A stretch of 64,000 nucleotides of DNA from Ignavibacteria bacterium. GTDB taxonomy: Bacteria; Bacteroidota; Ignavibacteria; Ignavibacteriales; SURF-24. Of this stretch, positions 59,603 to 60,253 are shown piece after piece (the stretch's first letter is position 1; each line of letters starts with the position of its first letter). The position numbers and the translations under genes were made by a program. The stretch lies in the NCBI GenBank assembly GCA_025612375.1, contig JAAXKN010000007.1, forward strand, positions 1 to 64,000. The letters are read 5' to 3'. The notes beneath the pieces are model-generated. The model searched no databases and was not told the DNA's origin. It worked only from the letters and a program-made list of their open reading frames with translations.

Positions 59603-59633
59603 TTGTATCTGTAACGTTAAAATGTTATATTTG
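59603..59633 (+). promoter_or_regulatory. TTG-N20-TAnnTTTG promoter before tRNA-Arg
   Basis: TTG (59603-59605), 20 bases and TATATTTG (59626-59633) match the Bacteroidota-type promoter. The tRNA starts 16 bases after the second box, which fits an initiation site close to its 5' end. Confidence 0.65.
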
Positions 59634-59648
59634 AAAACAATTTTTGAT

Positions 59649-59722
59649 GCACCCGTAGCTCAACTGGATAGAGCATCTGACTACGGATCAGAAGGTTTGG
59701 GGTTCGAATCCCTACGGGTGTA
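59649..59722 (+). tRNA. tRNA-Arg (anticodon ACG)
   Basis: The 74-base sequence folds as a full cloverleaf: 7-bp acceptor stem GCACCCG/CGGGTGT, D stem GCTC/GAGC, anticodon stem TCTGA/TCAGA with loop CTACGGA (anticodon ACG), and T stem TGGGG/CCCTA around TTCGAAT. The discriminator is A. CCA is not encoded. The adenosine at position 34 is the substrate of TadA, encoded 61 bases downstream on the same strand. Confidence 0.95.
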
Positions 59723-59782
59723 CAAATGATCCTGCGTTTTCAAAAGAAATGCAGGATTTGTTTTTTTAAAGCCGGAGAAATA

Positions 59783-60253
59783 ATGCTGTTTTCTGAAGAG
59801 GTTTACAGGTTCATGTATGCCGCCTTAAGCGAGGCTGAAAAGGCGCTGGAGGAAAATGAAGTCCCCATTGGCGCCGTCGTAGTCCATAAAAACAGGATAA
59901 TCGGCCGGGGCTACAACCAGACCGAAAGGCTAAAAGACCCTACGGCACACGCTGAAATTCTTGCCATTACCTCAGCTGCAAACCACCTCCAGAACTGGAG
60001 GCTTAATGAATGCGACATTTATGTAAACGTCGAACCCTGCGTAATGTGCACGGGAGCCATGATAGCTGCACGCATAGACTCACTCTACTTTTCCACTTAT
60101 GAACCCAAATTCGGTGCCTGCGGCTCTTTATACAATATAGCAGAAGACGGACGCCTCAACCACAAGATTAAAGTCTACTCAGGTATATATGCCGAGGAAA
60201 GCCGGATGTTGATGAAAGAATTCTTTCAAAAAACAAGATCTTCGGGCAATTAG
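59783..60253 (+). CDS. tadA: tRNA-specific adenosine deaminase TadA
   Basis: TadA converts adenosine 34 of tRNA-Arg(ACG) into inosine so that one tRNA reads CGU, CGC and CGA. The 156-residue protein carries the zinc and catalytic residues His56 and Glu58 (HAE) and Cys86/Cys89 (PCVMC). The start was set at the second in-frame ATG because GGAG lies five to six bases before it; an upstream ATG would add 19 residues starting in the tRNA tail. The gene lies just after its substrate tRNA, with no terminator between them. Confidence 0.95.
   Translation: MLFSEEVYRFMYAALSEAEKALEENEVPIGAVVVHKNRIIGRGYNQTERLKDPTAHAEILAITSAANHLQNWRLNECDIYVNVEPCVMCTGAMIAARIDSLYFSTYEPKFGACGSLYNIAEDGRLNHKIKVYSGIYAEESRMLMKEFFQKTRSSGN

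Follow-up and report, generated by a model that had tools for sequence, protein, structure and literature searches.

The window, meaning the whole stretch of 64,000 nt of Ignavibacteria DNA that was analysed, contains a single tRNA gene called by ARAGORN. The gene encodes tRNA-Arg(ACG), the canonical substrate of TadA (A34), and is followed directly by tadA on the same strand, as a preliminary description of the region had stated. The following features define the locus:

59626..59633, + strand: TATATTTG, putative -7 promoter element of tRNA-Arg(ACG), an exact TAnnTTTG match
59649..59723, + strand: tRNA-Arg(ACG), called by ARAGORN, Rfam tRNA 65.7 bits
59728..59767, + strand: intrinsic terminator, 13-bp hairpin and T-run, from a scan and folding against shuffled sequences
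59783..60253, + strand: tadA, tRNA(Arg) adenosine-34 deaminase, 156 aa, NCBIfam NF008113
60331..60975, + strand: adk, adenylate kinase, after tadA, where several other phyla have tRNA-Ser

The window TadA is the predicted A34 deaminase of tRNA-Arg(ACG). The protein scores 160 bits with NCBIfam NF008113, above the model's cut-off of 150, and contains the H-A-E and P-C-x-x-C motifs, with columns H56, A57, E58, P85, C86 and C89 invariant in a 12-sequence alignment (A1). The tadA gene of a sister species (locus L010) is 88% identical. The ATG at 59783 was picked by alignment of homologues, and a longer in-frame open reading frame begins at 59726. Measured from the ARAGORN 3' end of the tRNA, the ATG is 59 nt away on the same strand. 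The close spacing described earlier is hence correct, with the figure of 61 bases to be amended. The canonical tRNA-Arg(ACG) has a single pattern match in the window's genome. A same-strand tRNA-Arg(ACG) is found within 300 nt before tadA; no same-strand tRNA-Ser is found within 300 nt after it, and adk is there instead.

The tRNA gene looks like an ordinary, self-contained unit of promoter, tRNA and terminator. The TATATTTG element starts 23 nt 5' of the tRNA and is unchanged in the sister species in a comparison by eye. TAnnTTTG, which we take to be the Bacteroidota-type -7 promoter element, precedes 14 of the 34 other tRNA units of the genome at a distance of at most 80 nt, compared to 40 of 1598 background windows of 80 nt. 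Given this enrichment, TATATTTG is probably the promoter of tRNA-Arg(ACG), in agreement with the earlier proposal that the tRNA has its own TAnnTTTG promoter. The 13-bp hairpin on the other side spans 59728-59758 and is followed by a T-run, TGTTTTTTT. Its folding energy is -16.1 kcal/mol (z -4.1), with none of 200 shuffles equally good. In the sister species, this position also carries a hairpin and T-run, the stem of which differs in sequence (-17.7 kcal/mol, z -2.5, 1 of 200 shuffles equally good). Such a terminator, a hairpin with a T-run, also occurs within 90 nt after 23 of the 34 other tRNA units of the genome. The terminator scan and the folding rule out the earlier view that the gap between tRNA and tadA has no terminator. 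With a promoter before it and a terminator after it, the tRNA appears to be its own transcription unit.

A motif scan of the gap between tRNA-Arg(ACG) and tadA found no exact TAnnTTTG. A single site with one mismatch is present, and 537 of 900 windows of equal length contain a site of this kind. Given the terminator and the lack of an exact motif in the gap, tadA probably relies on readthrough or on a promoter missed by this motif. Because of the hairpin and T-run at 59728-59767, the gap is not terminator-free and we do not class the window pair as an operon. The terminator disfavors the proposed cotranscription of tRNA and tadA in the window, and it leaves the proposed coupling of enzyme and substrate supply unsupported there.

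Relatives in the window's order largely share the relative position of the two genes, less so their close spacing. Among 59 related genomes, 58 contain tadA and 53 have one pattern match for tRNA-Arg(ACG), with none in 6. tRNA-Arg(UCG), which lacks A34 and is not a TadA substrate, has one match in 36 of the 59 and none in the window's genome. Both tRNA-Arg(ACG) and tadA are on one contig in 37 genomes (on different contigs in 15 of 52). The tRNA is upstream of tadA in 36 of these 37 and downstream in 1. Among the 36, 19 have the tRNA on the same strand within 0.7 kb, 14 on the same strand at 2.0-81.7 kb, and 3 on the opposite strand. tRNA-Arg(UCG) shares the tadA contig in 30 genomes. In 24 of these it precedes tadA within 0.7 kb on the same strand, in 4 it is on that strand at a greater distance upstream, and in the other two it is either upstream on the opposite strand (1) or downstream (1). 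At the scale of 300 nt, 13 of 54 loci have a same-strand tRNA-Arg(ACG) before tadA, and the nearest same-strand tRNA is tRNA-Arg(UCG) in 23 and tRNA-Arg(ACG) in 7 of 30 loci. The adjacency of tRNA-Arg(ACG) and tadA is seen in three families of the order. Terminators were detected in 4 of 30 gaps, with 0.4 expected by chance; the count is a minimum, because the finder used for gap counts is blind to imperfect stems such as that of the sister species. Downstream of tadA, a match to adk is found in 51 of 58 loci (presence within flanks of 1.5-2 kb, with side and strand not set per locus), and none of 54 loci has a same-strand tRNA within 300 nt. The ancestral order in this group was probably Arg(ACG)-Arg(UCG)-tadA-adk, which would later have been split by gene insertions in many species.

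Several observations concern the sequence between the separated genes. Open reading frames were listed at 10 loci, covering nine same-strand pairs and the inverted pair of G018 (G023, G017, G020, G010 and G029 are not among them). By eye, these look like ordinary chromosomal genes together with one transposase-like open reading frame. On this inspection by eye, insertion of a mobile island with an integrase between tRNA and tadA is unsupported. In the nine listed pairs (L134-L142), among the 14 of 37 genomes with a spacing of 2-82 kb, the intervening blocks look like differing ordinary genes. The stretch between separated tRNA-Arg(ACG) and tadA is possibly an insertion hotspot. At four loci (L065, L053, L045 and L048), no more than 8-25 nt separate the end of tRNA-Arg(UCG) from the point where the tadA alignment begins, so that a promoter would have scant room. 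What appear to be defective additional tRNA-Arg genes, interrupted or cut short by small palindromic inserts, were seen by eye upstream of tadA at L012, L045 and L052. L045 also carries a tandem repeat upstream of tadA, again judged by eye.

Outside the order, the arrangement is nearly absent from the window's phylum. In the phylum survey, 107 of the 109 genomes proved to contain tadA, and the 59 loci examined consist of 14 from other orders of the class, 44 from outside the class and 1 repeated member of the window's order. Upstream sequence among the 44 is limited to 286 nt in L128 and to less than 470 nt in L101 and L102. Of 14 loci from the other orders of the class, 4 have a same-strand tRNA-Arg(UCG) 187-1095 nt ahead of tadA, and none has tRNA-Arg(ACG) there. 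Outside the class, tRNA-Arg(ACG) is found beside tadA in 1 of 44 loci (L093, f18). The congener L129 lacks it, and an independent gain in L093 is possible. The only named Chlorobiota locus (L231) has no tRNA within 3 kb of tadA. Conservation across Ignavibacteria and Chlorobi, suggested earlier as a check, is hence found in the window's order and not at the one named Chlorobiota locus, is nearly missing from the rest of the phylum, and extends to bacteria beyond the groups named.

Distant bacteria carry tadA within larger tRNA arrays. A pattern search with the TadA alignment provided a named set of the best 80 matches listed, which is an uneven sample. With a flank of more than 300 nt needed, 75 of the 80 loci were usable upstream and 77 downstream. 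The nearest tRNA within 300 nt upstream is on the same strand in 16 of 75 loci, on the opposite strand in 3, and 56 have none. At points more than 2 kb away in the same loci, the background is 25 of 4214. The 16 same-strand tRNAs comprise Arg(ACG) in 11 cases, Arg(CCT) in 2, and Arg(UCG), Glu(CTC) and Ser(GGA) in one each. Downstream within 300 nt, 21 of 77 loci have a same-strand tRNA, in all cases tRNA-Ser, and one further locus has tRNA-Ser on the opposite strand. The 11 loci with Arg(ACG) are labelled Omnitrophota (3), WOR-3 (2), and Atribacteria, Calditrichota, KSB1, Candidatus Scalindua, Puniceispirillum and Elusimicrobia (one each), the Puniceispirillum record being a doubtful bin. L173, with a Saprospiraceae label, is perhaps a mis-binned contig, and the label of L206 seems doubtful. 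Three pairs of identical loci (L172/L234, L188/L261 and L183/L291) are each counted in two sets.

Three groups were sampled more densely. The KSB1 phylum, defined here by the KSB1-labelled genome G165, is represented by 39 genomes, of which 34 contain tadA; 30 of these loci were read. For Omnitrophota, tadA is present in 27 of 38 genomes, and 26 of the 27 loci, all of which were read, have enough upstream sequence. For Bacillota, taken as the phylum to which the Clostridium genome G169 belongs, tadA is present in 37 of 41 genomes, and 27 of the 30 loci that were read have enough upstream sequence. Gap and terminator counts leave out loci with less than 310 nt upstream, i.e. 4 of 58 in the window's order, 1 of 27 in Omnitrophota, 3 of 30 in Bacillota and 0 of 30 in the KSB1 phylum. 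A same-strand tRNA-Arg(ACG) lies within 300 nt before tadA in all 30 KSB1-phylum loci, being the nearest tRNA in each, in 12 of 26 Omnitrophota loci and in 11 of 27 Bacillota loci, with Arg(CCT) interposed in 10 of the 11. The fullest KSB1 array reads Gln(CTG)-Arg(TCG)-Glu(CTC)-Arg(ACG)-tadA-Ser(CGA)-Ser(GGA)-Ala(CGC), and the order Arg(ACG)-(Arg(CCT))-tadA-Ser(CGA)-Ser(GGA) is repeated in KSB1, Calditrichota, Scalindua and Bacillota loci. To our knowledge, the tRNA-Ser, tRNA-Glu, tRNA-Gln and tRNA-Ala of these arrays are not TadA substrates. The gap to the nearest upstream tRNA is at most 50 nt in 24 of 30 KSB1-phylum, 8 of 12 Omnitrophota and 10 of 15 Bacillota loci. Terminators in these gaps number at least 4 of 30, 1 of 12 and 0 of 15, respectively (shuffle expectations 0.6, 0.3 and 0.4). 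At 5 of 29, 1 of 20 and 3 of 22 loci, the tadA stop codon falls within the tRNA gene that follows. Judged from these short and mostly terminator-free gaps, a tRNA-mRNA-tRNA cotranscript is plausible in the three groups, where the cotranscription suggested for the window would have a better basis.

A tree of 104 TadA sequences informs on how the arrays spread. Across 7 groups the tree requires 14 label changes compared to a shuffled mean of 69.6, and it is built from few columns, with weak deep forks and an unsettled bootstrap. The clustering of TadA sequences by group argues against one recent transfer of a cassette. The KSB1 rows need 5 changes. The Calditrichota locus L181 sits among the TadAs of the KSB1 phylum, hence Calditrichota may be no independent phylum in this comparison. 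With tRNA-Arg(ACG) beside tadA in a single outside-class locus of the phylum and only tRNA-Arg(UCG) in the other orders of the class, connecting the window's order to the deeper arrays depends on outgroups and requires losses or a regain.

We suggest that the pair in the window is likely an eroded remnant of an old and widely shared same-strand array of tRNA genes and tadA. The shared order across phyla, the near-constant orientation and the group-following TadA tree favor an old array as the source. In the ancestral cluster, by presumed common descent, tadA would have been located within a same-strand tRNA array with Arg(ACG) in front and tRNA-Ser behind. Arrays of the KSB1 phylum, Omnitrophota and Bacillota would produce one transcript of tRNA, tadA mRNA and tRNA, which tRNA-processing nucleases would cut. 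The window lineage has no tRNA-Ser behind tadA, having adk instead, and tRNA-Arg(UCG) is absent. The tRNA would now be a unit of promoter, tRNA and terminator, with tadA, and perhaps adk too, fed by readthrough or an unrecognised promoter. The remnant reading is supported by the 33 of 37 same-contig genomes of the order with tRNA-Arg(ACG) upstream of tadA on the same strand. Speaking against it are the low share of order loci with this tRNA within 300 nt on the same strand (13 of 54) and the 56 of 75 loci of the best-80 named set without a tRNA within 300 nt upstream.

An alternative, to which we give even chances, is that a tadA of low need and without a promoter of its own borrows the promoter of any upstream tRNA, and that the arrangement persists by inertia. 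The identity of the nearest upstream tRNA varies (ACG, UCG, CCT, Glu, Ser) and the strand is nearly constant, with same to opposite strand ratios of 30:2, 12:1, 15:1 and 30:0 in the group samples and 16:3 in the best-80 named set. Many gaps between tRNA and tadA are also too short for a promoter, and the gap in the window is without an exact TAnnTTTG. Borrowing would leave the excess of Arg(ACG) across phyla unexplained except by common descent, however, and the terminator in the window would cut such a supply. Inertia of this kind accounts for the pattern in the order at least as well as selection for coupled supplies.

Such coupling, in which selection holds tadA behind its substrate tRNA because one transcript sets both supplies, we consider doubtful overall. 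The predominance of Arg(ACG) among upstream tRNAs (11 of 16 in the best-80 set) speaks for coupling, as do the KSB1 loci, where the substrate is always the nearest tRNA, gaps are mostly at most 50 nt and terminators are few. The single tRNA-Arg(ACG) match in most relatives (53 of 59) also fits. Yet a terminator separates the two genes in the window, the nearest tRNA in the order is mostly tRNA-Arg(UCG) with tRNA-Arg(ACG) often kilobases off, Arg(CCT) is interposed in nearly all Bacillota loci with Arg(ACG), and the arrays include several non-substrate tRNAs. For intact arrays, coupling is a possible and reasonable hypothesis; in the window the terminator contradicts it, and in the order the frequent occurrence of tRNA-Arg(UCG) weakens it.

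TilS is a tRNA-modifying enzyme with tRNA-Ile2(CAU) as its single known substrate, and tilS of the KSB1 phylum was chosen as a negative control (L321-L350; TilS passes the cut-off in 34 genomes, and 30 loci were read). At 17 of the 30 loci, the gene immediately before tilS, in the same orientation, is a tRNA with a CAT anticodon, and tRNAs of other kinds are absent upstream of tilS at all 30; tilS is thus not a clean negative control. Were this tRNA Ile2, tilS would provide another enzyme-substrate pair in support of coupling; were it Met, a tRNA before the gene of a modifying enzyme need not be its substrate, and coupling for tadA would be weakened. Compared to E. coli, the tilS tRNAs match Ile2 slightly better (52-54 of 73 positions) than Met (48-52 of 73). 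Against the window's genome, they are nearer to the Met-like CAT tRNA (59-65 of 73) than to the Ile2-like one (49-54 of 73), labels that depend on differences of 3 and 4 bases. The gaps between tRNA and tilS show hairpins with T-runs by eye, which also speaks against coupling. The control leaves the odds of coupling versus the other readings unchanged.

Chance adjacency confined to the window's lineage would fit the terminator that splits the two units and the single case among 44 outside-class loci, and is ruled out for practical purposes, at a very low residual probability, by the recurrence across three of the order's families and, within a larger array, in several distant phyla.

Going further, an operon of tRNA-Arg(ACG), tadA and tRNA-Ser might have existed deep in bacterial evolution, with the tadA mRNA, in lineages that retain the operon, excised between the tRNAs by tRNA-processing enzymes and enzyme supply tracking tRNA supply; we regard this as a tentative and rather unlikely proposal. 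If true, a tadA stop inside the downstream tRNA gene would make mRNA and tRNA compete for one transcript. Should the arrays be real operons, a wobble-editing enzyme would be tied to its substrate at the transcript level, and coupling would become testable. The arrays could also mark ancient gene order in bacteria, and the window lineage and KSB1-type arrays would provide a natural comparison for the loss of such an arrangement.

Known systems resemble parts of this arrangement. In E. coli, secG is not known to be related to the tRNA in its transcript. According to the title of Mohanty and Kushner (2008), secG leuU forms a polycistronic tRNA-mRNA transcript with RNase P processing and involvement of a terminator (PMC3985628). 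The likeness lies in a protein gene and a tRNA gene standing together, there in one transcript; here, in contrast, the protein is predicted to edit the upstream tRNA, the arrangement recurs across phyla, cotranscription is a proposal, and in the window a terminator lies in between. Decoding of CGN codons in Mollicutes involves the same players, TadA, tRNA-Arg(ACG) and tRNA-Arg(UCG). There, TadA was lost and tRNA-Arg(UCG) gained, the latter perhaps by duplication of the ACG gene, in the portions of that account available (PMC3711424). Here, tadA is retained and the ACG and UCG genes often stand as a pair before tadA in relatives, an adjacency unmentioned in those portions (PMC3711424). The yaaJ gene of B. 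subtilis corresponds to tadA, a Bacillota TadA acting on tRNA-Arg, and the accessible sections of the report do not discuss neighbouring tRNA genes (PMC10454642). Among literature mostly outside subscription journals, we found no account of tRNA genes beside tadA, and such genes are unmentioned in the available parts of PMC11472039, PMC3711424, PMC10454642, PMC7387457, PMC12255301 and PMC3985628. Searches of protein-gene neighbourhoods can miss tRNA genes, hence a cross-phylum tadA array could have escaped notice. A tRNA-Ser gene presumably adjoins yaaJ in B. subtilis.

The window's genome contains a second tRNA-like gene with the anticodon ACG, called by ARAGORN on contig C29 and lacking U33. 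The gene is part of a cluster of low-scoring tRNA-like genes (L379, C29:36600-38800), which is possibly part of a mobile element.
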